Assembly: GCA_947184155.2 (NCBI GenBank)
Contig: CAMXCT020000457.1
Location: 185,186-249,185, forward strand
Direction of reading: 5' to 3'
Length of the DNA stretch: 64,000 bases
DNA from: Cladocopium goreaui
Taxonomy: Eukaryota > Sar > Dinophyceae > Suessiales > Symbiodiniaceae
The translations under genes were made by a program, and so were the position numbers. How positions within the stretch are numbered: position 1 is the stretch's first letter; each line of letters opens with the position of its first letter. Positions 8,871-28,337 of the stretch are shown here, piece after piece. The notes below the pieces were generated by a model, which was not told where the DNA came from, did no database searches, and worked only from the letters and a program-made list of their open reading frames with translations.

Positions 8871-9769
8871 ACGTATTATCCTACCGGTTCTATCGCTGCA
8901 CAGAGGAAGCATTATCGTAGTACTTCTCCATTCTGTGCCGGTGGTGCATGGCTCTGGATCGTCAGCGGCAACAGGAAGTGAGTCTATTGCCAAAAAATTA
9001 AAAAGCATCAAATATGCATTCCGAGCACCTCCTTGGCATGAACAAGCACTCCTTGGTTGACAACTCAAAGGATAGTGCGCCAGTTGGCAGGATGCAATAC
9101 TAATGACAATACTTGACACGTAAGTGCTGCTTGGCCTAGCACGCTGCCAACAAGGCAATAACTATCAGGGACCAGGCATTCTTTGATGTGAGAATCTGGA
9201 CAAGCGACAAGTAATCAACAGCTCTGTCTGGGAGCAAGGTTTATCCATTAGTCCGTTGGCCACCTCTACTCACAAGGTTAGCTACTATGTGGGAGATGAG
9301 GGGTCAAACTCCTGGGTAGTACATTGCGACTAAACCATGCTGATTCAAGCGGAGAAGATATATCTTTTCCTGGAAAATGCGTGGCATCAGTAACTACCCA
9401 GCATTTATTGGATCTGCTCGTGTCCAGGGAAGGGTCATCCGTTCGTTATTATTCCGACGTACGTTGTTTGAATGGGGGATAAAATAGATGGAAGGTATCA
9501 CCTTATCATGAGTATGGCACCCGAGTAGGTAGACCCGAAACTAGCGACTCAAAAAGCCAAAAAAACACCTTAAGACTTCATGTGCCATGGGAACACTGCA
9601 CAAGTGGATAGGAGGATTGAGTAACTGGCATGGCACAGGACTGCTCTATGGACAGACAGAGAGCGGGATTCAAAGACCACTACAAAACTCGACTGCTTGT
9701 AACGTATTACATATCTGTCCATAGGGGCTTAAGCAACTTAAGGCAGGTCACTATTGCGGCTTTCAATTA

Positions 9770-9914: not shown

Positions 9915-10565
9915 TTTTTTTTTTTTTTTGCCCCTTGCCCCACACCTTTTCCCCAGGGTGGGAGGTTGATCCCCTCTGAACACCCAGAGAGAGGCATACA
10001 CGAGATGAAAACATAGCGGAGCGATACTGCGGGATGGACTGTAGGTCAAAGGCAGGTGGACGAAGCCGCGCTGAAAAGTTATCACAGCCTATTAATCTAT
10101 TAACATTGGCGGAAATGATTGAGCATAGTTGGTTTTCCGCGGGCGGCTGGGCCTGGGCCGTTTTCACAGGATTATAGAGTCCCTTGTAGTGCCATGTTAT
10201 TAAGGGGCCGCAAAAAGTCGTCCTTATGTTAGAGTCCTCCACGTTAAAGCCAGTGCGCTGGTGCTTGTTAGGCTCGCTAGCTAAATGAGAAAGGGGATCT
10301 TGGACTACTCAAGGCGAAGGTTCAGGATTATGATGTCCCCATGGGTCTGGCTAGGGCGGGGAGAGCTACCCAGAGTACCCCTGGGAGCCAACCCTACCGG
10401 GCAAGACCAATGTACATGAGGCATGTGAACTAACTTTGCGGAAGGATGGGTACAAATACGGTAGTGAGCAGATGAGGTCTACTGAGAATAGGAGGTCTCA
10501 ATCAGCAATAACTACATTGCAGCAGCCAAGGCTGCCTGGAGAGTGACCAAGTCTTGGGGTTGGTC
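9915..10565 (-). other. 3'UTR, terminal stem-loop and poly(A) of the large LINE
   Basis: The LINE ORF stops at 10566 and the minus strand then runs about 640 nt to a clean poly(A) of 15 (T15 at 9915-9929). A stem-loop CTCTG-AACACC-CAGAG at 9974-9989 lies 44 nt before the tail, like the stem-loops 35 nt before the tails at 1141 and 1594. A hairpin of the GTACC family (10368-10386) is also in the 3'UTR. The poly(A) end marks the 3' terminus of a minus-strand non-LTR retrotransposon. Confidence 0.75.
10368..10386. repeat. ACCCAGAGTACCCCTGGGA hairpin
   Basis: Member of the GTACC hairpin family in the LINE 3'UTR. An almost identical copy lies in the 5'UTR of the same element at 24,037-24,062, so both ends of the element carry the same hairpin type. 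Confidence 0.65.
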
Positions 10566-13500
10566 TTAATTGTAACCCACTCCCGTCGGGCGCTCGCGTC
10601 GAGCACGCAGTTTGGCAAGGGCTTCCAAGGGCGTGGCGCAGATGTGTGGGGAGCCTTGTGCGCTGCGCTGTTTACGTTTGGAGCTGTGGGGTGCACGACG
10701 GGTAATGGACAGGGCATGGCTGCTGGCGGTATGCTTAAGGGTGTCTACATATGCCTCGCGTGCTGTGCTAAAGGGGGTGACTTTAAACCATGTCTGACCA
10801 AAGTAGAGCTGGTGACTGGACAGAACTTCCTGTTCGATCTGTCGTAACGTTTGCTCAGGAGGCGGGGGGGCAACCAAGAAGCCATCATGCAGCCATACCA
10901 CAGACTGTGTCGGGTGGCAGGCAATGAGTGCACGAATAGTATCCTCAACAATTGTGGCTTCAAAGTGTTCTAGCAAGCGAAAAGCGCTATCATGCTGGTT
11001 GACCAGGAAACCTGGGCGGAACCGCGGCAGTAACTGAGTAGTCAGGGTTGCACTTAAAGACTCGAGCTGGCAGAGGATCGCGCCGACACTAGCACTGGGG
11101 GAGTCGTCAACCAGAGAACTTAGATATCGGTATGTAGCAGCAAGGGAGCTATTGATAATCCGTAACGGGAGTTGCTTGATGGTGCCAGGGCAGGCCGCCT
11201 CAACTTTCTGAATATAGGGGTCTCGGGCTAGCTGCGCGCGGAACTCCTCGATGGCTGGAAGAGGTACCAAATCGGGCGCAAAACGTAATCCCAGGCGCCG
11301 AACAAGTTCATAGAAGGATCCCTTAAGGTCAATTTCGCAGTGATTTTGTCCGAACAGTAACAGCCTGGCAGCTCGTGGTATTCGCTGGCCTCCTATGGTG
11401 CAGCAGTATCTTCGTCCGCAGTTATCCGCAGCTTTGGGGGAATAGTCAATCTCAATACAGCAGTTTTGCGGCAGGCATGGAGAAAGATAGGATTCGATCA
11501 GCTGACGGTGATGGGGGTGGAGGGTTACATGTTTTCGGAGAAGACCGTGATCAACGCGGGGCCTCTCTACCAGGGTAAGAATGGGCTGGCTCCAAGTTTG
11601 ATCAAAACTTTGAATGTGGAAGCCTCCGACCTGAAAGAGACCAGTTGGGAAAGATGGCTTGATGGACACCGGTCCAGCATTCCGATTAAGGGCAGCAGGG
11701 TCGCTCCTGTATTTGGCCAACAGGAACTGAGTGGCTTGTCCAGCCAAATCATCAGCTATGCCGTTGGCCACTCTCGGCAGATATATGAATAGACTATTCG
11801 GGAGATGCAGACTGACGGTGGAGCGAATGCTTTCCAATGGTTGGTGCATATCTATCCTCCGAAGACGGCCTGCAAATTGAAAGTACTTAATCACAGGAAG
11901 AATGTCCCCTTGGATGACTACCTTGGGTGCTAGGCCGCGCTTCGATAAACGTTGCTTCACAACAACAGCAACTTCTTCAACAAGATACAAACAGGCCATG
12001 ATTTCTGCTTCTATATTATCTGAACAATGCGGCAGAGCGACTGACCGACATGCGATAACACGAGATCGACCACCTTCTATTACGTAGATGACATAGCCAG
12101 CTCCTCCTAAGGCATCTTCGTGCAGACAACTTCCATCGAATTGGCCTACAATCTGTATCGAGGGTTCGGATGGTGCATCGTCGGGGGGAATTGCTAAGAT
12201 CAACTCATTGGGACTGATGGACTGCAACGCCGTAACGGTACAGTAGGAATCAGGCGAGTTGGGGCAGGCTGGTACAATCTTAGCATTGGAGCGGAGTCCA
12301 GCGACCCTGGTTCGTGCTGGGGCTAGGCTAAGCCATGGATGTCCAAGGGGAAGGACGGCAATAGGCTGATCCGGGGCAATGGGTGTCGTGGCCGTGCAAA
12401 CTAGATCGGGAAGGGCTGCAGAGTGAAGAGTTACTGCTTCGTTGGCGGCGGTTTGCATATGGCACGGATGATTTTGGTTGTCTGTCGTGGCACCCTGGGG
12501 TCGTACGGCGGAGGCGAGCTCCGGGAGGAAACGAGTTGGGATTGCCTGCAGGGCATTGTCGTGTAAGCGGGTGAGCCATTCAGCGACACTTAAGGGGACT
12601 GAAGATGGCGCGTGTTGCATGCCTCCATGCTCAAGCAAGAGTCGGCGGAACTGGTGCAGGATGTGGCTCGCGGTAACACATCCAGCTGCGTTGACTCGGG
12701 CTAGCTGGTCTAACGACTTCACTGGATCAGGGGAGGGTGACAAGGTGTTGGCAACTAGGACAGGCACTATGCAGAAACGAGCCCAATGTTGAGAGGAATT
12801 GTCTCCATGTCCGCACGCTACGCAGGGGGCGAGATTACGTGCACGGTCACGCCATGAGTCAGGAATATGGAAAGAGCCCCGAGCAGATTCCGCAATAGCA
12901 TGCCAAGGGGATGTGATCGGGATTCCCCATCTCTCACTACTGTACAGAGTGGTGGCATCAATATTGTGGTCGTGGCAGCATTTCTCACATGCTGGGGCAA
13001 AGTTCAACCCTAGTGGGTACAGCCGGGTAGGAATTCCACATAGTTGGCATGGCTGCTCCGCCTGCAGCGAGCCTGCAACTCGAAGTCGCAGGCATTCATC
13101 ATCACCTTCATTGACCGCCCACCGCAAGACAGCAAATCGAGCAACCCCATTAACAGCAATTTTAGGCACTGAGGCTAAGTGGGTCAACCAAGCCCACGAT
13201 ACCCCACCTGGTAGGAGTTGCAGGCTTACTCTAGACTGTAGATACTGTAGTGCATGCACTTGGATGGCTTCGTAAAGTCTAAGTTTCAGTCGGCGGAGGA
13301 ATTGGTGATGCGTTTTCCTGGTGTTGTGTCCTGCAATTATACGCAATAAGTTGCCAATTGTGTCAATTCCAAGCAAGGGAATCCATGTGCGGAAGATGCG
13401 TTGGACAACCGCTCCTTGCCTTGTCCCTACATCCGGGTACCCCGGTGAGAGACAGGCAGTAGAGCCATTTTGCCTAAGCCAATAACCCAAACACGCTGCA

Positions 13501-16500
13501 GTGAGCGTGACTGCTGGATCTAGTGCAGGAGCAATACCTAACCACCGAAATATGTGTGGGAGATATCGTGCAGCCAGCCATGGTCTGCCCAGGATAAGTT
13601 TAGCCGAGCGTTGTTGGTATAAATTGATGTCGTCCGGAGTAAAGCCAAAGTATGTACTTTGGTAAATATTCAGGGACAAAATGAAACAATTGTTGGCTAA
13701 GCTTCTTTGCACTACCGAGTGAGCAGGTGTGGCGAAAAGTGCCAGTCGATGATTAGCTTTTGACATGGCCTTGGGGTTAATGGCTTGTGTTCCAACAAGT
13801 TCCTCTACTGGGGTCCACCCTTGAGGACTACGGGTATATTTACCATATAGCAGCAAACCCAGCGCTGTAGTTTTTCCTTCAATGAGATGGGCTCCCCAGT
13901 CGGAACGTTCTAGCGCATGCAGAGTACTAAGGGAAGCAGGGTGATTAACCAGCACACTGCACTTGTTGGAACAACTACACTGGACTAGGAAAAGTGGGTC
14001 AATCTTAGTAAGATGCCCTCCAACTAATATTAAGTCGACCTCCGCTGGGGTGAGACACACAAACAAGTTTGCTCGGAACACTATGGTGGTGGTGCTATAC
14101 CCTGCTCTGCGGAGCAAGGCCTGCCGCAATGTAGCATGTCCTGGTAACCTTTGTGTCCAGTTTAGTGGAGGGTGTTGGTCGATCTGACCTGAGCTATTTG
14201 CATGCATATTGATTCCGTTGGTTCGCCAACAATGGTGTTCATCTATTTGGATGCCAGCGGATTTCAAGCGGAGGCAGGCTTGCCAGGCATCCGAGAGCCA
14301 TTGCATGCCTGCTGCAGTGTCTCCCACCATCGTGGTGTCATCAACATATCCTTGAACCGTCAGCATGCCGGGGATTCGGTTAAGGTAGGTGAGAACTGGA
14401 TCCATGGCAACGCAAAAGAGCAGGACTGAAAAAGATCGACCCATGTCAACACCTGTGACAATGATTTTGGAAGGTAACAGTTTACCTTGTACCTTGTGCC
14501 TGCATCTTCTAAAGAGGAGGATGTGTCGGGTGTACATGATGATCCACCAGGGGGCTTTACACGCTGATAAAATTTGCAAAATCCAGTGGGGGTTAATTCG
14601 CTCGAATGCTTTAGATAGGTCCAATGACAGGCATGCGCATGGTGCATCTTGATCTAAAACTGCTTGAACTGATTGAACTGCACTTTGCGGCTCGCGGAAG
14701 AGATTTAACACCGTTTGGGAGGGGTGAAGGAGCGGTGCGATGGCTTTGGTCATGACTGCGGCAATGCTGCCATCGATGACTCTCTCAAATGTCGATGGCA
14801 TACCCAATGGGCGGAAATTATCAGCGGTAGGACCCATTTTCGCTTTTGGGATCCATGCTTGGACTGAACACGGGGGAGGGACCGCAGATCTACAGATATC
14901 ATTAAGATGTGTAATCATCGCATCAGATGATACCCCAGGGTGGAGTCGCCATGCTGCATAGGGTATTCCGTCTGGACCTGGGGAAGAATCATTGGTGGTG
15001 AGGACAGTTCTGATGAAGTCTTCCGCGCCGGGGGGGGGAACATGTGGCCAGGGTTGGGCTTGCGATTTATACTGCTCCAGGTAGTCTGTCCACTCAGGAT
15101 CATATGTGACAGGCGGTTGGAACCAGAATTTACGGGTAGCAAGCATGGCTGCAGACAAGTCAAGGTCAGTTTGCCACTGGTTGCCTGCCCCGTCCAAAAT
15201 AGGACCATTATAAAATACCGTTCTTGGGCAGCTAGCTCGCAATCTCTGCCATAAAGGAGCACTAGTTCCGAGGCCACGGCTGCGGGTAGTTTCATCTCTA
15301 TTCCTAGTGATAAGATGTTGTTGTTGTAATTGTAGATCAAGGAGCTCGAAACACTTCCAAAGGAAGGTACGAGGAATCGTAATGACAGTGGATGATTGGC
15401 AATATTCCTCCAGGGCAGGGCGGAAGCCTGGAAGGGCGGCCAGGAGCTCTTGTAGCAGTCGCTTAGAGATGTTAAGAAGTGGTCGGTCAGATTGGAGATG
15501 CTTCCTTAGGGTGTTGAAGTCACGGGGCCGCTTAGGGAGAGACATCCACCATTGCCATAATAATGCTTGGAGAGATTCAAATGTGGGCTGGGAGACTAAG
15601 CAAAGTCGGCGAACCAGCGATTGGAGTGACGGCCAAACTTGCCGGGTGTCATGTCGGTCCTTACCCGGTTGGAAAACACTCGCCGGTATGGTCATATGCA
15701 GAGGTAGGTCTGGGCTACTGGAAACTGGTGGCCTGTGGCGCAATTGGATGGATATGCATGCATGCCCAGCGGACTCGAAAAGACGATCATAGAAAACCTG
15801 ATATTGGATTAATCCCCGATTTATATATTCGGTCGGGAGAATGACCTTGTCGATTGATGACGAGCCATTTGGGCCCCAGAAGGTTGGTTCATCCTTGACA
15901 ATGTCGTCGCCCTGTGCACAACTTAATATTCTGTGCCATGCGCTAAGGGAGAGATGATGACTGTGATTAAAGTCTCCGACGATGAAGAAAGGGTCTGGAA
16001 GGTCTTGATGATCAGATATCCATCTGGCAAGAGTTTCACAATCTTCTTTTGCGCTGCTGGGATGACAATAGGCTGAAATCACCCAAAAGCAGTCGGTTCT
16101 GGTTTGAATTTGTGCAGCAAGGAGTTTACCAGGCATGATGACAATTTCCTGCAAGAGTCTAAAGGAGCATGGAATCAATATAGCTACTCCTCCCGACAGG
16201 CCTCCATTTTCTGTTGCTATAGATGGGGAGTGCGCAATATTAAAACCGGGGTAAGTTTGGAGAAAATTGGTAGCCGTACTTGCCGTCCATCTGGTTTCTT
16301 GGAGGCAGACAATGCCATTCCGAGCTCGGCGGAGAACGGCTTGCGTTTTAGGGTTAGTCCATTGCAACGTTCTCCAACCTGATGCATTCCATGTGGTTAA
16401 ATGTTTAAGGGCAGTACAGCAATCTTGTTTCTTTTCTAGACTGTATTTAAGGACTTCGGCACAAAGGAGGCTAAACTCGGTGGAGTTGGCCAGTGCTTGT

Positions 16501-16769
16501 GCAAGGAGTTGTCTAGAATGGGTAAAAAATTCGCTGCGGATGCCACACTTATTAGCCACTGTTTGAATGTCTAAGATTGGCCACGGTGCAGGGATTTGGA
16601 GTACATGCGGCAAGAAGGAGAGTGACTGCAAGTAGTATAAGCTTTTGGGACATTTGGTCATAAACTGAAGTGAATACAACGCTCGAATTTGTCGGGACCA
16701 CGCGTTGCGAAATTCGAGCAGGAGAGGTTTCGCAACCGTCCCTAGGCGCTGCATGGTTTTAAATGGCAC
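10566..16769 (-). CDS. LINE polyprotein: APE endonuclease, reverse transcriptase, zinc finger, RNase H, palm-like C-terminus
   Basis: A 2067-codon frame (first ATG at 16754; the frame opens at a GTG right after a TGA). Residues ~125-345 are an APE-type endonuclease: TTWNASGW, VCLQETRW, FIVGDFNHS, SSIDKVILP, AGHACISI. Residues ~515-900 are a reverse transcriptase: SPGPDGIPYAAW, FRPLGMPS, CLSLDLSKAF (about 717) and the catalytic GYVDD (about 807). Cys/His pairs at ~1241-1264 and C-x2-C...H...C at ~1316-1333 are zinc-binding, as in other LINEs. Residues ~1540-1690 are RNase H (QFDGS, NIEAEIMA, IQGDILP, NGIADDLAGQ). Residues ~1770-2000 carry GRRY, IPRAAR, CEIDLKGSFYELV and VVWLHDGF, reminiscent of a family-A polymerase palm. 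The protein would nick target DNA and copy element RNA in the nucleus. It shares a frame with the upstream methyltransferase ORF. Confidence 0.9.
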   Translation of the reverse strand: MPFKTMQRLGTVAKPLLLEFRNAWSRQIRALYSLQFMTKCPKSLYYLQSLSFLPHVLQIPAPWPILDIQTVANKCGIRSEFFTHSRQLLAQALANSTEFSLLCAEVLKYSLEKKQDCCTALKHLTTWNASGWRTLQWTNPKTQAVLRRARNGIVCLQETRWTASTATNFLQTYPGFNIAHSPSIATENGGLSGGVAILIPCSFRLLQEIVIMPGKLLAAQIQTRTDCFWVISAYCHPSSAKEDCETLARWISDHQDLPDPFFIVGDFNHSHHLSLSAWHRILSCAQGDDIVKDEPTFWGPNGSSSIDKVILPTEYINRGLIQYQVFYDRLFESAGHACISIQLRHRPPVSSSPDLPLHMTIPASVFQPGKDRHDTRQVWPSLQSLVRRLCLVSQPTFESLQALLWQWWMSLPKRPRDFNTLRKHLQSDRPLLNISKRLLQELLAALPGFRPALEEYCQSSTVITIPRTFLWKCFELLDLQLQQQHLITRNRDETTRSRGLGTSAPLWQRLRASCPRTVFYNGPILDGAGNQWQTDLDLSAAMLATRKFWFQPPVTYDPEWTDYLEQYKSQAQPWPHVPPPGAEDFIRTVLTTNDSSPGPDGIPYAAWRLHPGVSSDAMITHLNDICRSAVPPPCSVQAWIPKAKMGPTADNFRPLGMPSTFERVIDGSIAAVMTKAIAPLLHPSQTVLNLFREPQSAVQSVQAVLDQDAPCACLSLDLSKAFERINPHWILQILSACKAPWWIIMYTRHILLFRRCRHKVQGKLLPSKIIVTGVDMGRSFSVLLFCVAMDPVLTYLNRIPGMLTVQGYVDDTTMVGDTAAGMQWLSDAWQACLRLKSAGIQIDEHHCWRTNGINMHANSSGQIDQHPPLNWTQRLPGHATLRQALLRRAGYSTTTIVFRANLFVCLTPAEVDLILVGGHLTKIDPLFLVQCSCSNKCSVLVNHPASLSTLHALERSDWGAHLIEGKTTALGLLLYGKYTRSPQGWTPVEELVGTQAINPKAMSKANHRLALFATPAHSVVQRSLANNCFILSLNIYQSTYFGFTPDDINLYQQRSAKLILGRPWLAARYLPHIFRWLGIAPALDPAVTLTAACLGYWLRQNGSTACLSPGYPDVGTRQGAVVQRIFRTWIPLLGIDTIGNLLRIIAGHNTRKTHHQFLRRLKLRLYEAIQVHALQYLQSRVSLQLLPGGVSWAWLTHLASVPKIAVNGVARFAVLRWAVNEGDDECLRLRVAGSLQAEQPCQLCGIPTRLYPLGLNFAPACEKCCHDHNIDATTLYSSERWGIPITSPWHAIAESARGSFHIPDSWRDRARNLAPCVACGHGDNSSQHWARFCIVPVLVANTLSPSPDPVKSLDQLARVNAAGCVTASHILHQFRRLLLEHGGMQHAPSSVPLSVAEWLTRLHDNALQAIPTRFLPELASAVRPQGATTDNQNHPCHMQTAANEAVTLHSAALPDLVCTATTPIAPDQPIAVLPLGHPWLSLAPARTRVAGLRSNAKIVPACPNSPDSYCTVTALQSISPNELILAIPPDDAPSEPSIQIVGQFDGSCLHEDALGGAGYVIYVIEGGRSRVIACRSVALPHCSDNIEAEIMACLYLVEEVAVVVKQRLSKRGLAPKVVIQGDILPVIKYFQFAGRLRRIDMHQPLESIRSTVSLHLPNSLFIYLPRVANGIADDLAGQATQFLLAKYRSDPAALNRNAGPVSIKPSFPTGLFQVGGFHIQSFDQTWSQPILTLVERPRVDHGLLRKHVTLHPHHRQLIESYLSPCLPQNCCIEIDYSPKAADNCGRRYCCTIGGQRIPRAARLLLFGQNHCEIDLKGSFYELVRRLGLRFAPDLVPLPAIEEFRAQLARDPYIQKVEAACPGTIKQLPLRIINSSLAATYRYLSSLVDDSPSASVGAILCQLESLSATLTTQLLPRFRPGFLVNQHDSAFRLLEHFEATIVEDTIRALIACHPTQSVVWLHDGFLVAPPPPEQTLRQIEQEVLSSHQLYFGQTWFKVTPFSTAREAYVDTLKHTASSHALSITRRAPHSSKRKQRSAQGSPHICATPLEALAKLRARRERPTGVGYN
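13432..13448. repeat. TCCGGGTACCCCGGTGA hairpin inside the RT ORF
   Basis: A GTACC-type hairpin that is part of the coding sequence; on the minus strand it encodes the peptide LSPGYPDV. It is another example of the hairpin family being tolerated in frame. Confidence 0.55.
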
Positions 16770-17150
16770 TCAAACAAGAGAACAAACAAAAAAGGCAAAA
16801 TCCGGGGGGGCATTGTCCGTGTTCCAGCTGCATGCGAGCTCCTGACTGATCTCTCCAATGGGATTGATATGTGGAAGATTGTCACTATGCTCTGGGTACT
16901 TGAAGACACGGTTGTCAATCGATGCTTTAATAAGGCATGTTTGGTATCCTGCAGTGTCATCAAGCTTCCAGTTATGTGCAGCAGCAACGGCAACATTACC
17001 CTCATTGTTAATGAACATGCAACCGTGTAGTTCAGGATAAGAACAGGCTGTCGTATGTACACTGCACGAGGCTTGTTCAATAAAACGAGACAAGAAACAC
17101 ACAATGCACTGGTCATAGAGGAATGTGCCAATGAATCGATGACAAATTAA
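16770..17150 (-). other. in-frame linker between methyltransferase ORF and RT ORF
   Basis: This 381-bp segment is open in the same frame as both the methyltransferase ORF (upstream) and the endonuclease-RT ORF (downstream). It is bounded only by a TAA at 17151-17153 and a TGA at 16770-16772. The 126 codons contain protein-like sequence (for example HGCMFINNEGNVAVAAAHNW and YQTCLIKASIDN). It is therefore either a stop-separated junction used for reinitiation or readthrough, or a former continuous polyprotein with two nonsense mutations. No domain was recognised. Confidence 0.55.
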
Positions 17151-20100
17151 TTACTGCCCTTTCGGTCCATAGGGAACAGCAAACCAGATGCAGTTGGGGT
17201 TGGTGCAACGGAACGGGATGGGAGCAGCCGTGAACACTGCGGGTTGAGGCAGTTGCTGCCATGGGATGTCAACTCGAGTGTGACAATTCCACGCAGCTGT
17301 GTCAAGGTGAAAGGTACGTGAGCGCGGAAATTGAACACAATAGACCGTCCATTGGGCAGGGGCATCACCGAAGGTGGCAACATGAGCTTGGTCTTCCCAG
17401 TCGGTAATATGAACAAAATGAATAGACATTTGCTCAAGATGTAGTAGGGAGTACAACCAGAGCATAAGCTGCGCCATGTCGGAGGTGCATTGTCCAGCGG
17501 ATTTGAGTTTATGGGAGATCCACTCCTTGGCTTGTGGACAGTGGCGTTCTACTACTGCTTCATAATTATGGCCAAAGAAGAACTGCAGTAGATCTTCTGT
17601 TCTTCCAATTCCTGCTCCGAAAAACCTCATACCTACGAGGATACTTTGCATTTGTTGTTCCTGGAGAAGTTGAATAGCAGTTGGCGAAAGTTGAGAAGGT
17701 GGTCTGTTGTCCATCACGCCTAGGTCGGCAGGGTGAATCTTACGGTTAGCAGGCAGCAGTTGTGTGGGAAGTACAGTTGGCATGACGGGGGTCAAGGGAC
17801 CTTCGAGTGCATGAATTGGAAATTCTGGCATTGGATCGAGACCTACTTGCTTGGAAGAGAAATCACGAATACGCTGTTCCCGTGCCAAGGTTTGTACTTG
17901 TTCACGCAGGGCTTGGTATTGGGCTCGAGCTTGTTTTGGGTGAACGACTCCGGACCATGCATGTTTAGTTGTTGTTTCAGCATGCTCAGTGAGCCAGTCA
18001 CGTAGCCTTTCAGGGTGTCCTACAGCTGCCTGAATGTATTCTGGATGAAAGCTATTGCCGCAATAATTTCTAACTGTGAACTCAGTGAGCAGCGAGCGAT
18101 GAGCCTGCACGCGGTTGAAATGGTTGTGTAATCCTGCTAGTTTTTCGACCTCCTCACAGAGCAATATTCTCATGGGTGCTTTGATGTGGGGATGATGGAA
18201 TATGGGCAGGATAGCACGGACAAGCCGATCTCGATCATGAGTGCTCACATTTTTTTGGCGAAGGGACTGCAGGAATCGATTCCATGCACGCAGATAGTGC
18301 GGCGGCAGAGATTTCGCAAAATCAAGGGAAGGGATGATATCGCTTGAATGCATTTTGGCTTTGAGTTGAAATTGAGCTTTATCTCCCCAGAAAAGGTAGT
18401 CCCAAATAAGAGAGATTGGTTGATATGCTGTCCACGATAGCTGAAAAACATTGTATCCTAGGACTGATCTGACTCGTAGGAGTGGTCCATAAGGAATTGG
18501 ATGACCATTGAAGTCTATTAACGGTCCTTCTCTGTCACTCGGTTCCAAGACAATTGTCTGGGCAACTTGGACGCCATCCTGGTAATTGCGAAAATAAAAT
18601 CTGTTACGTCTTATGCCATGTGTGTTCTTGGGGTCGACACGGAGGCTATCGGGAGTCGAATCAGGGTTCAGTCCAAGAGCACGTAGGATTGCTTTGCGAT
18701 GGATGTCAAGCATTGCACCTGCATTCTCAAGCAGAAAGCGGATGTGCTCCAGAGGATAGTTCATTTGCACAAGCCACAGGATTACGTGTACATAGTAGAA
18801 CAAGGAACTACAATGGCCAGTAAGTCCGAGAAGTCCTTTCAGGGGGCCGGCTGGGGTGAGATCCTGGCAGGGGGAGCCAGCAATTACAAACCAGCGGCAA
18901 TGCGGCCCAGCCAATGCAAATGCTTCCTTAAGGATTCGACATTGGTTGCGAAGTAATCTCCGTACATCGTCAGCATAAAGCGTGTAAGTGTCCTTGCTGG
19001 ATTGAGTCCATTCACCATCAGTGCGAAGGTCAAATTGTTCCCCAACGAGTTGTCTGAGGATGGGGTCACATTCTGCAACAATAATGATGCGCGGGGCACA
19101 TCCAATAGCTTTAGTGATGGCTGGAATAGCTGAGCCTACACCGTCAAATAAGCTAATAATAGCATATGGGTGCACTTTGGAATGCTTAGCCTTTTTGGGA
19201 GGGGATGCATCTTTTTCCCTCACAAAGGAACTATGGGAAGTACCACTTGCACCACTGACTGGAGGGCGAAGACTGCCAGCATAGCTACAGGATGGGTTTC
19301 CATTAGTGTAATTATCATTGGGACATGACCGGACAGTCGCCTCTGGTACATATTCAAGCGTTGGACACTGGACACTAGCGTTAATACGAACGGGTGTCAA
19401 AGCCTCAGGTTCACGAGGATGAGTGACATCAACAAGCTCTTTACTGCAATGGTCTGCATGGGATAGTGGACCGTAATCATTTTGAGGGGTGTTCGTCAGA
19501 CCAACTGTGGGTGCCCCACAGTGGCTTTCTGACGTACAGCCCCCAACGTCGTTGTTCGAATTCGTATGTGGAGTGGATGTGCCCGCGTGAGGAAAAGGTG
19601 GTCCAAGTCCAACCATGGGTACCCCATGGTGGCTATGATGATCATTGCCGGCAGGCTCGTTTTGAACAGGGGGGGACGTGGGTTGGGTTCCAGGTGGGTA
19701 ACCAACCACGAGTACCCCGTGTTGGTCAACCACCTCGCTATGCGCCGGGTGAGTGTGTTTCGGGGTATCAGCCGGATGGGGGCTCTCACTTGGTTGTAGG
19801 GGGTCAACTGGTTTGCTATCCAATGCATCAGGTAACTGATCGGAGGCACTGTTAGTACCAACTTTTTTCTTTGACAGGTTGGGGGTCTGATATCGTTTGG
19901 CAGTAATGCCTAGGATAGTTTTAGGTTTTAACTTTGGTTTTCTGGGACGATGAGACTGTTTGGCACCCTGAAGTGTGGCAGGTGCAATGGCTTTGTACTG
20001 TGGAGGTTGGAAGGAATAGGGCTGATGATCATGTCGACGGAAGACAAAACCCCATACCAAAGAGGTTGCTTTCAGTTGTTCGACCGGGATCCATACATAG

Positions 20101-20720
20101 CCTCGGAGGTTGTCATATACGAGAACCTGTCCTTCGTGCCACCTCTCAATGACAAGAAAATGGTGCGATGACTTTCCTTGAACAACAATGATACCAGTGA
20201 CTACGAAAGATTGACAAACAGGATTGGCACTAAGGGTGGGGATATTGAAAAGCTGTCCGAGGAGGTGTAAAGCCTTGGTGGCAAATGGCAGTTGCTCAAT
20301 GGGGCTTGTGATTTTGAGGGTAAAAATTAAACATCCTTCAATTTCTTCGTTGTTTTGTTGATCCTGATTGTAACAATCACTGGCGTGGGAAAAGCCAACG
20401 TCATCTCTGTCAAGTGCAAGTCGCGGAGTCCGATCTGCAATCATTCGCGAAAGATCAATGGTATCGTTCTCCAGGTTAATGTTTAACATTGTGTCAAAGA
20501 GAGCAGCTGAAACCTTGCCCGATGCGTTACATGAAAGGCAATTCACATGAAATTGCGCAAAGAAGAGTTCGCAATGGTCAGGAAAAAGGTCATCACAGGC
20601 TGCAATGATCGCGGTATCAAGATCAGAAACTTGTCCTGGCGGAATCAAGATCAGAAACTTGTCCTGGCGGAAAGGCTTTAACGTTAAGGTAGCTGGCAAA
20701 GGCAGCGCAGACTTCACCAA
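17151..20720 (-). CDS. DNMT3-like cytosine-C5 methyltransferase within retroelement polyprotein (with C-terminal half of USP-like domain)
   Basis: A 1189-codon frame whose first codon is TTG, so it is a continuation rather than an independent gene. Residues ~30-220 complete the USP-like fold begun in the upstream ORF: a Cys pair (NCLSCNASG) and a His box (KSSHHFLVIERW...LVYDN). Residues ~230-510 are disordered and include three peptides encoded by hairpins (HGVLVVG, HGVPMVG, CGAPTVG). Residues ~515-900 hold the methyltransferase: motif I SLFDGVGSA (~523), II AECDP, IV AGSPCQDLTPAG (catalytic Cys ~616), VI LLENAGAM (~663), VIII GIRRNRFYFRN (~701), X RNYCGNSFHPEYI (~883). The SPCxDL context and following KGLLGLTG are DNMT3-like. 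DNMT-bearing retrotransposons are known from dinoflagellates, and such enzymes methylate CG sites. All key motifs are intact. The remaining ~290 residues are unknown. Confidence 0.9.
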   Translation of the reverse strand: MVKSALPLPATLTLKPFRQDKFLILIPPGQVSDLDTAIIAACDDLFPDHCELFFAQFHVNCLSCNASGKVSAALFDTMLNINLENDTIDLSRMIADRTPRLALDRDDVGFSHASDCYNQDQQNNEEIEGCLIFTLKITSPIEQLPFATKALHLLGQLFNIPTLSANPVCQSFVVTGIIVVQGKSSHHFLVIERWHEGQVLVYDNLRGYVWIPVEQLKATSLVWGFVFRRHDHQPYSFQPPQYKAIAPATLQGAKQSHRPRKPKLKPKTILGITAKRYQTPNLSKKKVGTNSASDQLPDALDSKPVDPLQPSESPHPADTPKHTHPAHSEVVDQHGVLVVGYPPGTQPTSPPVQNEPAGNDHHSHHGVPMVGLGPPFPHAGTSTPHTNSNNDVGGCTSESHCGAPTVGLTNTPQNDYGPLSHADHCSKELVDVTHPREPEALTPVRINASVQCPTLEYVPEATVRSCPNDNYTNGNPSCSYAGSLRPPVSGASGTSHSSFVREKDASPPKKAKHSKVHPYAIISLFDGVGSAIPAITKAIGCAPRIIIVAECDPILRQLVGEQFDLRTDGEWTQSSKDTYTLYADDVRRLLRNQCRILKEAFALAGPHCRWFVIAGSPCQDLTPAGPLKGLLGLTGHCSSLFYYVHVILWLVQMNYPLEHIRFLLENAGAMLDIHRKAILRALGLNPDSTPDSLRVDPKNTHGIRRNRFYFRNYQDGVQVAQTIVLEPSDREGPLIDFNGHPIPYGPLLRVRSVLGYNVFQLSWTAYQPISLIWDYLFWGDKAQFQLKAKMHSSDIIPSLDFAKSLPPHYLRAWNRFLQSLRQKNVSTHDRDRLVRAILPIFHHPHIKAPMRILLCEEVEKLAGLHNHFNRVQAHRSLLTEFTVRNYCGNSFHPEYIQAAVGHPERLRDWLTEHAETTTKHAWSGVVHPKQARAQYQALREQVQTLAREQRIRDFSSKQVGLDPMPEFPIHALEGPLTPVMPTVLPTQLLPANRKIHPADLGVMDNRPPSQLSPTAIQLLQEQQMQSILVGMRFFGAGIGRTEDLLQFFFGHNYEAVVERHCPQAKEWISHKLKSAGQCTSDMAQLMLWLYSLLHLEQMSIHFVHITDWEDQAHVATFGDAPAQWTVYCVQFPRSRTFHLDTAAWNCHTRVDIPWQQLPQPAVFTAAPIPFRCTNPNCIWFAVPYGPKGQ
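19504..19723. repeat. three covarying hairpins inside the DNMT ORF
   Basis: ACTGTGGGTGCCCCACAGT (19504-19522), ACCATGGGTACCCCATGGT (19612-19630) and ACCACGAGTACCCCGTGTT (19705-19723) share a TAC/TGC loop and a CC-rich inner arm. Their outer arm bases differ while staying complementary. All three lie in the disordered part of the protein in the same reading frame. Confidence 0.75.
20616..20671. repeat. 28-bp perfect tandem duplication causing frameshift
   Basis: The 28-bp unit beginning ATCAAGATCAGAAACTTG occurs twice back to back (20616-20643 and 20644-20671). Because 28 is not divisible by three, the duplication shifts the minus-strand frame. The upstream frame (24027 to 20623) and downstream frame (20720 to 17151) differ by exactly this shift, and both encode PPGQVSDLD across the repeat. 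The perfect identity indicates a recent event. Confidence 0.9.
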
Positions 20721-23700
20721 TGCTTACGCGTCTTCCTTGCACCGTAGCAGTCTGGTCAGCCCATGTCCATCCATTGCCGATAGCACATAGGACTAATTCT
20801 CTGATGTGGCCATGAAACATGCTGTCATTCCAAGGTGCATGGGTGAGGACACGAAGTGCAGTAACCGCATAGCACATGTAGCTTGAGAAGTTAATAAGAT
20901 AACACGTTGCAAGCTTGGTGAAATGGTCGCAATCAGCATGGGAAAATGAGCTGGGCCATCCATTGATAATTTCTCTATTGGAAATGAGGAGACTACTGCT
21001 TTGTGCACTGCCACATAGAATGTTGTCGATCGGGCTGTGTGAGGCTTTAACAAAGATTACATCGTCGCCTGGAACATGTGTGTTCGCGTTGTCATTCAGC
21101 GGCTGGTAAGCGGCATTTTGTGCTAAGAAGTCTAAAATAGTTTCAGGTGGCTGATTAGATACGCTCTTGTGTTCATCTTTGCCGCGGTTCGTTTGCTTGC
21201 TGGTTTGGCTAATCTTTTGTGAAGGTATGCCAATTTTTGAGGTGAGATTGTCGGGATGATCTTGCTTGTTAGGCGTTGAGTCATTGGCGGTACCCACAGG
21301 AGAATTGATTGATCCGGTGGCCTGAGGCATCAGGTGGGTATGAGTGGATCTCAGGGTGGCATCTTTATGCTGAGTGGGGCAATCAGATAGTAAGGGTTGT
21401 GCAGTGGTTTTGGAAACAAAATGAGTCTGTGCAGTAGATTCGGAAGTGTCACACAACCGTGAGTGCCCCACGTTGGCGACATCATCCTGATTGGCGGGCG
21501 TATTTGTGTTACGATGCACGTGTGTTTCCTTGGGAGGACCGAGGTTGTTCGTAACGTCATCCTGGGCATGTTGCTCAGGTTCGGGAGGGTGATTCTGATC
21601 GAGGTTGGTCAATGCACTGTTGTTGTTAGAGGCGAGAGGGTTGTGATCATGGAGGGTATTATTCTGTGGTTGCAATTCTTTGTCAGGGCTGTGTGTGTCG
21701 TCGTCAACTGGATCAAGAGCTGTTGCAACGCATTCCATGGGTACATCTTCACAGTGTTCGCCAGTACCTGCTTGAAGGTGCATTCCAGAAGATTCTGGAT
21801 GTTTGTTGTCATTGGTTGGTGCAGGCTGCATTTCGATGTCATCCTCAGGAGGTGCGTTAGGGGGTCCTCTACACTGCCTGGGTTTGTAAGGTGGGCGATA
21901 AGCTGGCCTGTTACCTGTTGTTGTTGGACTCGACTGTTCATGGGAGTTCCCACTCTTAGTACTGTTCATTCCATGGCCGTTTGGAAAATGGGCAGTTGGT
22001 GTGGCATTAATGTACTGCTCCTTCAATCCAGCATGGATAGTGCCAACACCAGGGGTTCTTTGTGACGGTACGCCACAGGCATATGCTTCTCGAAGGTGAC
22101 AACATTGCGTCTTATCGAGAACCTGCGATATCGAAATTCCAGGTGGTAGTGTGATGAAAGTTGAGGAGGGTTCAAAAGTACGTATGATCAATTCATCATA
22201 GTACCGCACCTTCCATTCGTCACGCTCAAAGTGGACGGATTTCAAATGGAAACGCTGTTCTGGGCCAAGTACGATATGATAAAAGAGCCACTTCAGATGG
22301 TCCTTATGTTTGATAAATTCGTGATGAAGTAGATCAATTTTAACAGTGCCAGGGTTCATCACAAAAGATTCCTGGATGAAAGAGTTGTCGCAAAAGTTAA
22401 CTTTTGGTAGGCATTCCATTAAGGGCATATGCAACTCTTTGGGTGAGAAAAACCAGGCCGGCGGTTGGGACGCAATGGCTATAATGTTAGTGAAATCCTG
22501 CATAGAATCAATGACAGTAGTGCGCAGATCATAGTATCTTTTGGCTGACTGTTTCTTATTTGGTTCAAAAGAAAGATGACTGATTCTGCCTTCTTTAGGG
22601 ATCATTTGTTGAGCAATGACTTTATTCCAGTGATCTCGTCTGGTTTCGACTTCAGTGAGGGACACATCAGCACGAAAATCTTCTGCAGAGGGGCACTGGT
22701 GCTGGATGACAACTTGACCAAGGTCACAATTCAGTGAAAGAGGGAGAGAGTCCTCATGTTTAATCTCGATGTCAAAGCAAAGACACTTTTGTTGCGACCT
22801 ATCAACTTGACACCAACGAATGGAGAAGTTAACAGCCCCTACCTTTTGCCTTAGTAGTCGTACAAGAGATGATTGGTCCGATTGATCAAGTTGGTCTTCA
22901 TTACACATTGATGAGGGAATTTCGGCCCATAAAATCTGAGCAGGGGCGTACTGAAAAGAACCAATTTTGCCAAATTTGACTTGAAAATGATTATAATCAT
23001 TGGTGGTCTGTGTGCAATGTGGTTCCGATCGGAGCACGTGGACAGTGAAAGCACCTTGCTTAGGCCCAATTGGCAAATGAATGTCAAAAGGAAGAAGGGC
23101 TAGGTGAAGATTAATGACCAGTGACGGTGGTCCGAAAATGGCAAGTCTTCTGTAATTCATGAAATGGTACCTCACTTTTAGGCTGGCTAGTTGGACAAGG
23201 ATATCATTAAGCACAGTGTTCGGAAACGTCTTCAAATCCAATACTGACATAGTGATTCCATGTGGAAAATGTTTTTGGAATTCAGAGTCATTCCATGGAA
23301 AGAAATGCTTAACCTGACACTCTGCAAGTCCATGCGACCAAGCGGCATCGATAGTTGGTTGAAGGGTCTTCTCAACAAGCTCGATGTCTGCCAGACAATC
23401 ATTGGCAATTTGTACAGTTAGTGAGGTAACGTCAATCTTATCTGATATGCGATGACATCCGTTTGGTCTTCTGAAGTCAATGTAGTTAACTGCAGAAAGG
23501 CTCTGAAGTTCACTGATCGTCTGGTGTCGTTCAACAACAGTTCTGGGAAAGACATACTCCAGTGTTCTGCAAGGTTGAGACCAAGAAACATGGCAGTGTT
23601 CAGCATAGGGTTCAACCTGGCATGCAATGAGATATTTCTCTTGATTATTTGCGGAGCAAAAGGAAACTCCAAGATTTTGCATAAAGCCGACATGCTGAAC

Positions 23701-24027
23701 TTTGTCGTTAAGGAGGTTGTATAACCATGCAGAAGCCTCAAATTCACTGGTACTGCTCGAACAAGTGAATACAAAATGAACAGAGATTTCTTTGTTAAGG
23801 CAAATGTCTATGAATTTCTGAAGGACATAAGCTTTGGGGAGCAATAGACAGAGGCCTACTCCTGTATCACTGTGATCAAAAGCTTCTTCGTAAGTGATCA
23901 CAGTGCCTGAATATCTGTTCGAATCAATGTCACTGGGGCAGTTTGCAACAAAGAGATGTTCTTTCCCAAGACTTGACACCAGCTCAATGGCATGCTGCTC
24001 AATCGTGTCATGAGGGTTACAGTTCAT
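20623..24027 (-). CDS. N-terminal part of the DNMT retroelement polyprotein, ending in USP-like Cys box
   Basis: 1134 codons from an ATG at 24027 (MNCNPHDTIEQHAI). Residues ~1-690 look globular and rich in Cys, His and Phe, but match no family I know. Residues ~690-1010 are low-complexity Pro/Asn/His/Thr with one hairpin-encoded peptide (VANVGHSRL, 21455-21474). Residues ~1050-1120 contain LINFSSYMCYAVTALRVL, which resembles a USP Cys box (N-x4-CYA), followed by a hydrophobic helix. The His box of the same domain is in the downstream ORF. The last six residues (SARTSF) come from the 28-bp duplication that breaks the frame. Without it the protein would run directly into the methyltransferase ORF. 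Four DinoSL relics lie ~440-530 nt upstream, marking the transcript 5' end. Confidence 0.7.
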   Translation of the reverse strand: MNCNPHDTIEQHAIELVSSLGKEHLFVANCPSDIDSNRYSGTVITYEEAFDHSDTGVGLCLLLPKAYVLQKFIDICLNKEISVHFVFTCSSSTSEFEASAWLYNLLNDKVQHVGFMQNLGVSFCSANNQEKYLIACQVEPYAEHCHVSWSQPCRTLEYVFPRTVVERHQTISELQSLSAVNYIDFRRPNGCHRISDKIDVTSLTVQIANDCLADIELVEKTLQPTIDAAWSHGLAECQVKHFFPWNDSEFQKHFPHGITMSVLDLKTFPNTVLNDILVQLASLKVRYHFMNYRRLAIFGPPSLVINLHLALLPFDIHLPIGPKQGAFTVHVLRSEPHCTQTTNDYNHFQVKFGKIGSFQYAPAQILWAEIPSSMCNEDQLDQSDQSSLVRLLRQKVGAVNFSIRWCQVDRSQQKCLCFDIEIKHEDSLPLSLNCDLGQVVIQHQCPSAEDFRADVSLTEVETRRDHWNKVIAQQMIPKEGRISHLSFEPNKKQSAKRYYDLRTTVIDSMQDFTNIIAIASQPPAWFFSPKELHMPLMECLPKVNFCDNSFIQESFVMNPGTVKIDLLHHEFIKHKDHLKWLFYHIVLGPEQRFHLKSVHFERDEWKVRYYDELIIRTFEPSSTFITLPPGISISQVLDKTQCCHLREAYACGVPSQRTPGVGTIHAGLKEQYINATPTAHFPNGHGMNSTKSGNSHEQSSPTTTGNRPAYRPPYKPRQCRGPPNAPPEDDIEMQPAPTNDNKHPESSGMHLQAGTGEHCEDVPMECVATALDPVDDDTHSPDKELQPQNNTLHDHNPLASNNNSALTNLDQNHPPEPEQHAQDDVTNNLGPPKETHVHRNTNTPANQDDVANVGHSRLCDTSESTAQTHFVSKTTAQPLLSDCPTQHKDATLRSTHTHLMPQATGSINSPVGTANDSTPNKQDHPDNLTSKIGIPSQKISQTSKQTNRGKDEHKSVSNQPPETILDFLAQNAAYQPLNDNANTHVPGDDVIFVKASHSPIDNILCGSAQSSSLLISNREIINGWPSSFSHADCDHFTKLATCYLINFSSYMCYAVTALRVLTHAPWNDSMFHGHIRELVLCAIGNGWTWADQTATVQGRRVSIGEVCAAFASYLNVKAFPPGQVSDLDSARTSF
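21455..21474. repeat. AACCGTGAGTGCCCCACGTT hairpin in ORF
   Basis: A member of the GTACC/GTGCC hairpin family within the disordered region of the N-terminal ORF, read through in frame. Confidence 0.65.
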
Positions 24028-24036
24028 CTTGTCAAC

Positions 24037-24220
24037 TATAACCCAGAGTACCCCTGGGTATAGCGACTACGCAGAGGCAGGCAAAGGAGGGGCAACCTGA
24101 GCGAAACAAGGCGATGGCAAGATCTGAAATTAAATAAGAAGACTACACTGAGTACCCCAGTGAGCCTTGTGAATAAAATCGACAAGATGACCAGTAAAAG
24201 AACTACACTGGGTACCCCAG
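24037..24220. repeat. three hairpins in the 5'UTR of the DNMT retroelement
   Basis: TATAACCCAGAGTACCCCTGGGTATA (24037-24062), CACTGAGTACCCCAGTG (24146-24162) and CACTGGGTACCCCAG (24206-24220) form a spaced series just upstream of the ATG at 24027. Arms covary with the family; the loop GTAC is constant. They could form RNA structures in the 5'UTR. Confidence 0.7.
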
Positions 24221-24463
24221 GAGTCCTGAAACAAGTGGGGTTCAAAACAGTGTGTTCAATGGACACAATGGCAGTATGCAAAAAAGAGAAGGTAGATCTT
24301 AAATCAACAAAACTAAGATAAACCCCCCCCTCCCAAATTATCAAAAACAAAACAGGTTGGCGGGCACGTTTGTGCTCTTCCTACGGCAGTACTACCCTAG
24401 CCCCTTTTTTACTGGTGCCCCCAAAATTAACTCACGCAAATCACCCAAGATGGATGTTTGCCC

Positions 24464-24558
24464 CTTGAGTTAAAATTGGGTTACCCAGTACCCACGGGGT
24501 TTGAGCCGATACGGCCTTGAGCCAAAGGGTTACGGACTTGAGACAATCAGTCAGGGGA
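24464..24558 (-). other. tandem relics of the dinoflagellate spliced leader (DinoSL)
   Basis: On the minus strand there are successive degenerate SL copies at 24558-24537 (ending CTCAAG), 24536-24516, 24515-24501 and 24486-24464. The best one, 24536-24516, keeps the CCGTA start, CC and the 11-nt TTTGGCTCAAG end of DinoSL, with one substitution and a small deletion. The next has CCGTA..GGCTCAA, and the last has GTAACCC..ATTTT..CTCAAG. Tandem SL relics are the known mark of trans-spliced mRNAs that were reverse transcribed, reinserted and trans-spliced again. They define the 5' end and direction of the DNMT retroelement. Confidence 0.8.
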
Positions 24559-25950: not shown

Positions 25951-26395
25951 CAGGCAGTCGGTGAGAGGCCCTTCAGGAAGGTACCTTAAGAGGGGAACTT
26001 GAGAAATTGAATTTGAAGGTCCGTTGAGGAAGGCTTCGAAGCCCCCTTAAGGTGCCTTCGAAGCCTTCGAAGCTCCCTTAAGGTACCTTCAAAGGCTTCA
26101 GCCAAGGCTTCAACGCTCGAAGCCACCTTAAGGTACCTTAAGGGAGCTTCGAAGGCTTCGAAGACACCTTAAGGGGGCTTCGAAGAATTCGTCCAAGCCC
26201 GCTTAAGATACCTTCGAAGTCTTCGGCGAAGACCCCTTAAGGTACTTTCGTCGAAGCCCCTTAAGGTACCTTCGAAGGCTTCGAAGCCCCCTTAAGATAC
26301 CTTCGAAGCCTTCGAAGCCCCCTTAAGGTACCTTAAGGGGGCTTCGGTTCCTCGTTCACCCCCCCCCTCCCCCCCGTCCCCCCCTTCGGCAAAGG
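25951..26395. repeat. palindrome-rich block, copy 1 (CTTAAG/GGTACC/TTCGAA)
   Basis: A ~445-bp block starting CAGGCAGTCGGTGAGAGG. It is made of interleaved palindromes CCTTAAGG, AAGGTACCTT and CTTCGAAGGCTTCGAAG, ending in a C-rich tract. It is more than 90% identical by eye to 27845-28290. Nested self-complementarity makes the whole block able to fold or cruciform. Confidence 0.85.
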
Positions 26396-26665
26396 CTCAA
26401 GGTTCCCTTCGTCGAAGCACCCTTAAGGTACCTTCGAAGGCTTCGAAGCCCCCTTAAGATACCTTCGAAGCCTTCGAAGCCCCCCTTAAGGTACCTTAAG
26501 GCCCCCTTAAGGTAGCTTAAGGGCTTCGGTTCCTCGTTCCCCCCGCCCCTCCCCATCCGTCCCCCCTTCGGCAAAGGCTTGAGGTACCTTCGAAGTCTTC
26601 GGCGAAGACCCCTTAAGGTACCTTCGAAGGCTTCGAAGCCGCCTTAAGGTACGTTCGTCGAAGGC
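26395..26665. repeat. palindrome-rich block, partial third copy
   Basis: Repeats the last part of the preceding block (TTCGTCGAAGC, CTTAAGATACCTTCGAAGCC, C-rich tract, TTCGGCAAAGGCTT), so the block has itself been tandemly duplicated next to the satellite. Confidence 0.75.
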
Positions 26666-26682
26666 ATGATCTAAAATCTAAT

Positions 26683-27835: not shown

Positions 27836-27844
27836 GACTGCCCC

Positions 27845-28337
27845 CAGGCAGTCGGTGAGAGGCCCTTCAGGAAGGTACCTTAAGGGGGGAGCTTGAGAAA
27901 TTGAATTTGAAGGTCCGTTGAGGAAGGCTTCGAAGCTCCCTTAAGGTGCCTTCGAAGCCTTCGAAGCTCCCTTAAGGTACCTTCAAAGGCTTCAGCCAAG
28001 GCTTCAACGCTCGAAGCCACCTTAAGGTACCTTGAGGAGGCTTGGAGGCTTTGACGGTCCCTTAAGGGGGCTTCGAAGAATTCGTCCAAGCCCGCTTAAG
28101 ATACCTTCGAATTCTTCGGCGAAGACCCCTTAAGGTACCTTCGTCGAAGCCCCCTTAAGGTACCTTCGAAGGCTTCGAAGCCCCCTTAAGATACCTTCGA
28201 AGCCTTCGAAGCCCCCTTAAGGTACCTTAAGGGGGCTTCGGTTCCTCGTTCACCCCCCCCCTCCCCCCCCGTCCCCCCTTCGGCAAAGGCTTAAGGTACC
28301 TTCGAAGGGGGCTTAAGGTACCTTCGCCGAAGGGTGC
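27845..28337. repeat. palindrome-rich block, copy 2
   Basis: Direct copy of 25951-26395 plus a short extension (CTTAAGGTACCTTCGAAGG). It is flanked by the 12-bp direct repeat CACGACTGCCCC (about 27834 and 28341). At its left edge CGACTGCC-CCCA-GGCAGTCG forms a perfect hairpin. It abuts the truncated helicase-element pseudogene. Confidence 0.8.

Follow-up and report, generated by a model that had tools for sequence, protein, structure and literature searches.

A dinoflagellate LINE joins a predicted USP-like peptidase domain to a cytosine methyltransferase and carries a putative second polymerase domain

Does a single retroelement encode a deubiquitinase-like domain and a DNA methyltransferase in one protein, and what might it do with them? 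The question was raised by a locus of the dinoflagellate Cladocopium goreaui (assembly GCA_947184155.2, contig CAMXCT020000457.1, positions 185,186 to 249,185). This stretch of 64,000 nucleotides is here called the window; coordinates are window positions, and the element's features lie on the minus strand. A first-pass annotation had read from that strand, in order, an N-terminal region, a USP-like Cys/His pair, a methyltransferase, an endonuclease, a reverse transcriptase (RT), zinc fingers, an RNase H, and a further conserved region. Open frames, Pfam matches, and motif coordinates bore out this order. The element is a damaged copy of a dinoflagellate long interspersed nuclear element (LINE) of the SymbioLINE-Dnmt type with two open reading frames (ORFs). 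ORF1 joins a predicted USP-like peptidase domain to a C5 cytosine methyltransferase, and ORF2 appears to end in a TV-Pol-like polymerase domain.

Three long minus-strand open frames were found (24,066-20,623, 20,723-17,151, and 16,769-10,566). The first two belong to one gene, ORF1; a 28-bp tandem duplication within the peptidase domain has put them in different frames. This duplication had been suggested before and was located, as two units, at 20,611-20,672. The first part of ORF1, broken here (20626..24027, with the ATG at 24,027), encodes the N-terminal region and the peptidase Cys box. The second (17151..20723, an open frame of 1,190 amino acids) encodes the rest of the peptidase, a linker, the methyltransferase, and a C-terminal region. 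With up to 4 mismatches allowed, no more than one 28-bp unit was present in each of 17 other loci, which represent 16 different copies (L057 and L064 are the same copy); the unit went undetected in 11 of the 17 because the sequence there is more diverged. In 16 aligned relatives, the protein is continuous across the break point of the window copy. Pfam (E ≤ 1) gave no secure name for anything in the first two frames, and the N-terminal region, unnamed in Pfam, NCBIfam, PHROGs, and PDB sequence searches, appears to belong to no known family.

When the window's own assembly (1.17 Gb) was searched with the second frame, 39 scored genomic places matched (from 1,031 first-look candidates, the window's own place included), and 37 of them had no internal stop. 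Ten copies were taken for length (open frame of at least 2,422 codons). ORF1 in these copies is about 2,425 codons long and consists of the N-terminal region, a papain-like peptidase domain, a cytosine methyltransferase, and the C-terminal region; in all ten, a single frame holds the peptidase Cys and His boxes together with the PC motif of the methyltransferase. A protein search with the second frame gave 64 relatives among 7,999 scored candidates, the best being 88% identical over 98%. The pairing of a USP-type domain with a methyltransferase in one protein, first proposed for the window alone, is thus upheld by intact copies, by diverged relatives, and by purifying selection (below). Absence of the peptidase region from other copies had been named as the result that would speak against the pairing; the copies keep the region.

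Downstream of ORF1, ORFs of at least 600 codons bear YVDD in nine of the ten copies and LHDGF in eight; in seven copies, one ORF bears both. The two motifs lie in two frames in L079, while L075 lacks LHDGF and L082 lacks both. In the four copies that show both landmarks, the ORF2 frame has its first downstream Met codon 8 to 18 nucleotides past the first base of the ORF1 stop. The design of the element is two ORFs. The window copy carries about 380 bp of extra sequence between the ORF1 stop and ORF2 (17150-16770), bounded by in-frame stops; the closest copy, L074, lacks this stretch.

The USP-like domain, a papain-type cysteine peptidase as judged from alignments, motif order, and the ratio of nonsynonymous to synonymous substitution rates (dN/dS), spans 20028..20961. 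Its putative catalytic residues are a Cys (codon 20,872-20,874), a His (20,160-20,162), and an Asp (20,112-20,114), a triad that is divided between two frames in the window copy. Two putative zinc pairs, CxxC (20,529-20,543) and H-x3-C (20,373-20,390), fall within the roughly 228 residues that separate the Cys from the His. In an alignment of diverse segments (13 used of 14 cut), the CxxC (C143/C146) and the His are invariant, and the Cys, the Asp, and the H-x3-C (H194/C198) are nearly so. Across 50 aligned proteins, counting those that reach the column, the Cys is present in 29 of 31, the His in 37 of 40, and the Asp in 43 of 45; one row in these counts, P0044, whose sequence starts partway through the domain, is misplaced at the Cys and His columns. 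The order Cys, His, Asp, the roughly USP-like spacing, and the putative finger-like zinc-binding residues between the boxes are what would be expected of a USP.

Resemblance to USPs (family C19, Pfam UCH) extends to a C[YF] Cys box before a hydrophobic stretch, a CxxC finger, a second zinc pair, a hydrophobic strand, and the His box. The element Asp lies 16 residues past the His, and the viral USPs of L030 and L034 have an N-D doublet 15 to 17 residues past theirs; pieces of USP8, USP15, and USP21 from PDB align with the element domain likewise. For profile comparisons, three USPs were taken from viral contigs, two of which were scanned and match UCH at 3.5e-28 and 7.2e-36. Motif scans (2, 17, and 9 stretches) had placed USPs in L030, L031, and L034 and a partial one in L036, which was dropped from the profiles. 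Against a profile of six USPs (the viral proteins plus the PDB pieces), the part of the element domain from the fingers to the end had a local score of 23.3 (null mean, 12.6; standard deviation, 2.6; 1 of 200 shuffles higher). The trusted local alignment spans 68 columns that surround the two zinc pairs; when every column is displayed, the strand ahead of the His box, the His itself, and the Asp, which falls opposite the USP N/D-D doublet, follow in order. The positive control, viral against PDB USPs, scored 117.

Several results weigh against assignment to the USPs or against peptidase activity in every copy. Pfam UCH and UCH_1 did not match the three window ORFs (E ≤ 1) or the 13 domain members (E ≤ 10). 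The whole domain compared with the three viral USPs did not rise above 200 shuffles (local score, 15.1; null mean, 13.5; maximum, 23.3), and the global score of the finger-to-end part against the six USPs was 8.9, with 7 of 200 shuffles higher. The element also differs from USPs in that its second zinc pair is H-x3-C and the part between the Cys box and the fingers is unaligned. Among the relatives, the catalytic Cys is missing from P0047 and P0063, and Gln replaces the His in P0058 and P0063, which suggests that the peptidase is dispensable there. P0047 and P0063 represent a diverged lineage that keeps the domain with Ala at the catalytic Cys, so the fold may outlive catalysis in that lineage. 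Pfam, NCBIfam, PHROGs, and PDB sequence searches left the peptidase domain unnamed except for a partial match to Pfam Peptidase_C39 in 7 of the 13 members (best E, 0.00026). In the member listed, this match covers 42 residues on the His box (positions 78-119 of 133; 15.4 bits versus a cut-off of 22), and no whole-domain C39 match was obtained. With moderate confidence, the domain is predicted to be USP-like, not a USP. What stands of the Cys/His pair first annotated is a Cys-His-Asp domain with USP motif order; a Pfam UCH match does not go with it.

Between the peptidase and the methyltransferase lies a linker with three HG/CG[VA]xxVG repeats (19724-19500) that might be cleavage or binding sites. 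The methyltransferase follows at 18048..19154, identified by motifs, PDB profile, and dN/dS. It has motifs I, II, IV, VI, VIII-like, and X, numbered as we take them to correspond in this sequence: I at 19,140-19,154, II at 19,065-19,079, PCQ at 18,861-18,878, ENAG at 18,717-18,731, the VIII-like motif at 18,597-18,614, and GNSF at 18,048-18,062. All 45 rows that reach the PC motif have it, and of the 43 rows that reach EN, at least 42 have EN. Counting against the assignment, Pfam DNA_methylase matched seven of nine relatives weakly and below the cut-off (best, 16.7 bits versus a gathering threshold of 22), and it had no match in the window ORF at E ≤ 1. PDB profile hits were at E 0.05 or weaker, and 29 of the 35 were methyltransferases (23 DNMT3, 4 DRM2, and 2 named only "DNA methyltransferase"). 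From its sequence, the domain is a C5 methyltransferase of a subfamily that these matches do not fix.

The first-pass annotation was therefore right about the C5 motifs, while its label "DNMT3-like" finds no support in a missing Pfam match in the window and in PDB matches at E 0.05 or weaker. We rejected that label. The text of PMC5890265 places LINE-borne DNA methyltransferases (DNMTs) of Symbiodinium in an orphan lineage; PMC12344493 likewise counts SymbioLINE DNMTs among the orphans. DNMTs of SymbioDIRS-type retrotransposons are described as carrying out de novo CG methylation in yeast, and the LINE-type DNMT showed no activity, a result called inconclusive (PMC5890265). That dinoflagellate retroelements capture DNMTs was already known from the same paper, as annotated.

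ORF2 (10566..16754 from the first ATG) begins with an APE-type endonuclease (15825..16400; Exo_endo_phos, residues 143-310, E 3.5e-10, with the range extended to the LTTWN string and an Exo_endo_phos_2 match) and an RT (14244..14852; RVT_1, E 8e-15; YVDD at 14,337-14,348). Zinc-finger-like CxxC motifs are present, as is an RNase H (11739..12140; RVT_3, E 0.003, 17.9 bits, under the cut-off of 21.6). The further conserved region after the RNase H is indeed conserved and is, in addition, apparently a polymerase domain, a putative TV-Pol-like palm at 10704..11657 suggested by motifs, profile comparison, and dN/dS. This domain of about 300 residues occurs in 8 long and 95 shorter proteins (8,000 candidates scored in each search), none of which had a source name or Pfam domain outside the element. 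Its conserved strings are GRxYC, QRxPxxxRLLLFG, EIDLxG, K-x-LPL-xxx-NS, and HDG. The presumed hairpin Arg region lies at 11,355-11,387, the first Asp at 11,328-11,330, the Lys of the K..N region at 11,163-11,183, and the second Asp, that of HDG, at 10,884-10,886. By letter patterns in the 103 proteins, where the motif was found, the first Asp is conserved in 66 of 66, HD in 57 of 63, and the Arg in 46 of 47; its identification as the hairpin Arg is our own assignment.

TV-Pols are family-A-like polymerases that occur in mobile elements. As described by Iyer et al. (2008, PMC2579912), they share with the element domain a conserved Arg before the first-Asp motif, a Lys with an N/YG-like motif after it, and an HDG second Asp. 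Motif order is the same in six TV-Pols that we collected, and spacing is similar. TV-Pols are standalone or joined to a D5-like helicase (PMC2579912), whereas the element domain is fused to ORF2 of a LINE, a eukaryotic retroelement. The six sequences came from Microcystis phage LMM01 (picked by an R...D...HD pattern), a Calothrix plasmid and two Polaromonas plasmids (by similarity), and two bacterial metagenome-assembled genomes (MAGs; by a QHDGFTAT pattern). The phage seed (L001:22,749-24,266) was one of 2 frames of 58 that fit the pattern; the other, of 3,565 residues, was set aside. PMC2579912 names the seed phage; the gene number was not seen in its main text. A first genome scan with poor patterns found no TV-Pols. 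Seven later pattern matches yielded TV-Pols only in L023 and L027; we dropped the L024 match, which fell in an unrelated frame, and in the remaining four no open frame of more than 150 residues contained QHDG.

Selection on the domains was estimated as mean dN over mean dS (NG86), with pairs at dS ≤ 0.02 dropped. ORF1 was compared among 11 copies (51 to 52 of 55 pairs kept; 33 pairs and residues 563-1018 only for the N-terminal part), and ORF2 by the longest RT- or HDG-bearing frame of nine copies plus the window (20 to 42 of 45 pairs). In ORF1, dN/dS was 0.36 for the N-terminal part, 0.12 for the USP-like domain, 0.40 for the linker, 0.075 for the DNMT, and 0.078 for the region after it. In ORF2, it was 0.057 for the endonuclease, 0.098 for the endonuclease-RT stretch, 0.044 for the RT, 0.144 for the middle, 0.073 for the RNase H, 0.11 for the TV-Pol-like domain, and 0.23 for the tail. 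Constraint may be overstated by these values because the copies were chosen for intact frames. Each domain shows purifying selection, the USP-like one standing out from the 0.36 and 0.40 of its two flanks. The USP-like and TV-Pol-like domains are constrained like enzymes.

From the observed anatomy, conservation, and constraint, we infer how the element may work, and we give the mechanism as a whole, with the activities of the added domains putative, a probability of about 0.5. The element mRNA would be trans-spliced, which would explain the spliced-leader (SL) relics described below. Both proteins would be made from one mRNA, ORF2 by reinitiation just past the ORF1 stop, and ORF1 is assumed to bind RNA. 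The USP-like domain would take ubiquitin off the element's own protein complex, shielding the long ORF1 protein and its methyltransferase from degradation. Such shielding in cis would resemble, within one chain, the protection that USP7 is reported to give DNMT1; that report is recounted in PMC5828336, the title of which argues for independent functions. The methyltransferase would place its mark on the new copy or on host DNA nearby. ORF2 would nick the target and reverse transcribe, the RNase H would strip the RNA, and the TV-Pol-like domain would copy the second strand. A LINE that encodes one protein with two polymerases (the RT making the first strand, a TV-Pol/family-A-like enzyme the second) plus a deubiquitinase-methyltransferase fusion might supply its own second strand, protein protection, and copy marking; this fuller statement is tentative, and we put it at somewhat below even odds.

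The peptidase may instead serve to process ORF1, cleaving the protein of about 2,425 residues so that its N-terminal side becomes a particle protein and the methyltransferase is set free. The Peptidase_C39 matches, on the His box in the member listed, argue for this, as do the great length of ORF1 and the fast-evolving linker, which splits the peptidase from the methyltransferase and carries the three repeats. However, where their extent was seen, the C39 matches cover only about 40 to 50 residues; the long Cys-His gap with its CxxC/HxxxC pair matches the fingers of USPs rather than the C39 model with its 133 positions, and the region from the fingers to the His aligns in order with USPs. We consider a processing protease possible but unlikely. 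The first-pass annotation had inferred a different role, anti-silencing, in which the methyltransferase would rewrite DNA methylation and the deubiquitinase would strip ubiquitin from histones or silencing factors. Conservation of both domains, the selection on them, and the CG methylation by related SymbioDIRS-type DNMTs are consistent with that role. DNA methylation usually silences mobile elements and so would usually silence, not free, this one. Of the alternatives weighed here, we find anti-silencing the least probable.

Second-strand synthesis, the part of the preferred mechanism assigned to ORF2, has an alternative of its own: the C terminus may be an element-specific nucleic acid-binding or structural domain that shares motifs with TV-Pols by chance. 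In favor of this reading, Pfam, PHROG, PDB, and NCBIfam sequence searches gave no polymerase match for the ORF2 C terminus, viral contigs and phages yielded no relative, the six matches in plasmids were taken as chance (E of 1 or weaker), and none of the 95 protein hits points outside the element. The RxxxK signature of TV-Pols is absent from the element, where the Lys alone is conserved, and agreement at HDG is the weaker evidence because the phage seed and the two MAGs were picked by patterns that contain HD or HDG. Thinner TV-Pol profiles were weak (E 0.094 and 0.24). In the fuller comparison of 31 element and 6 TV-Pol sequences, hhalign probabilities were modest (12.8% local and 50.8% global), and 1 of 100 shuffles beat the local score in a first run.

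Against chance stand the scores of that fuller comparison. The local score was 29.8 (E 0.0022), with 0 of 200 shuffles higher in a second run, and the global score was 28.4 (E 2.3e-5), which none of 200 shuffles reached (maximum, 15.6; mean, 3.8; standard deviation, 2.3). Seven other natural alignments (the peptidase alignment and six other ORF2 slices, including the RT) gave 2.6 to 5.0 global and 13.8 to 20.9 local. The trusted local alignment of 92 columns includes GRxY, Q, R, the first Asp, and K..N, of which GRxY, Q, and K..N lie outside the patterns used for picking TV-Pols. The HDGF motifs superpose in the global alignment, as they do once low-confidence columns are displayed, and wherever the patterns detected them the first Asp and HDG hardly vary. 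Profile similarity to TV-Pols is above chance, and a non-polymerase domain strikes us as improbable. The ORF2 C terminus appears to be a TV-Pol-like, family-A-like polymerase domain and, if active, would be a candidate second-strand polymerase.

The SL relics lie at the 5′ end of the element (~24500..24545) and are recognized by sequence, by the start of homology, and by clearer strings in copies. Homology of all ten other copies starts at 24,547-24,516 (in L064 another match starts at 24,559), and SL strings are clearer in each of the four copies with displayed 5′ ends, one of which has two in tandem. Exact TTGGCTCAAG matches number three in the window, with 0.17 expected, and one of them is at the element 5′ end. 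The full-length SL, in the form we take it to have, had no match in the window with up to 3 mismatches. The relics had been annotated before, and the copies confirm them. Retroposition of trans-spliced mRNA is a known dinoflagellate trait according to the text of PMC6050394, and the relics, together with the homology start, fit it. The other two TTGGCTCAAG strings (35879-35888 and 53048-53057, minus strand) could be SL relics of other retroposed genes. On contig C1986, the element copy is preceded by another copy of the 5′ part, 96.7% similar, at L064 2007-3229. Just outside the element, 26029-28228 holds dense tandem arrays of 31-bp and 55-bp CCTTAAGG-rich units, with a GC skew of -0.37 at 26-28 kb.

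At the other end, the A-run at 9,915-9,929, first annotated as a poly(A) tail, is internal. We rejected a poly(A) end at 9.92 kb since 8 of 10 downstream stretches are homologous past the run: four copies to 9,060-9,071 and the closest copy to the query end at 9,001. With a second query, several copies were homologous on to about 8.5-8.8 kb. The copy comparison did not find the true 3′ end or target-site duplications.

SymbioLINE-Dnmt (de Mendoza et al. 2018, PMC5890265) is described in its text as a dinoflagellate LINE with a DNMT ORF upstream of the RT ORF, many copies, and purifying selection on the DNMT; the figure legend includes Exo_endo_phos, RVT_1, and RNase H among its ORF domains, as in the window element. 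An intronless DNMT ORF upstream of an endonuclease/RT ORF is found in the window as well. Target-site duplications and no poly(A) tail also define the type, and homology of the window element runs past the A-run. The main text of PMC5890265 contains neither "ubiquitin" nor "peptidase," and the part consulted names no further ORF2 domain. The USP-like domain of ORF1, the TV-Pol-like domain of ORF2, and the SL relics at the 5′ end go beyond that description. Helentron OTU cysteine proteases (PMC4067079) are a precedent for a deubiquitinase-type cysteine protease encoded by a transposable element. Helentrons differ, as that paper's text has it, in being rolling-circle DNA elements with the protease in a separate ORF and of the OTU rather than a USP-like type. 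Among the matches listed in the open-access PMC literature, taken by titles and abstract openings, none describes a LINE with a USP-like or a TV-Pol-like domain.

The later half of LINE integration, of which second-strand synthesis is a part, "remains very poorly understood" in the words of PMC6895275. If the assignment is true, a LINE with its own DNA-dependent polymerase domain would make the second-strand question testable. The fusion of a USP-like domain to a methyltransferase in a selfish element would likewise offer a protein in which a link between ubiquitin protection and DNA methylation may be tested.

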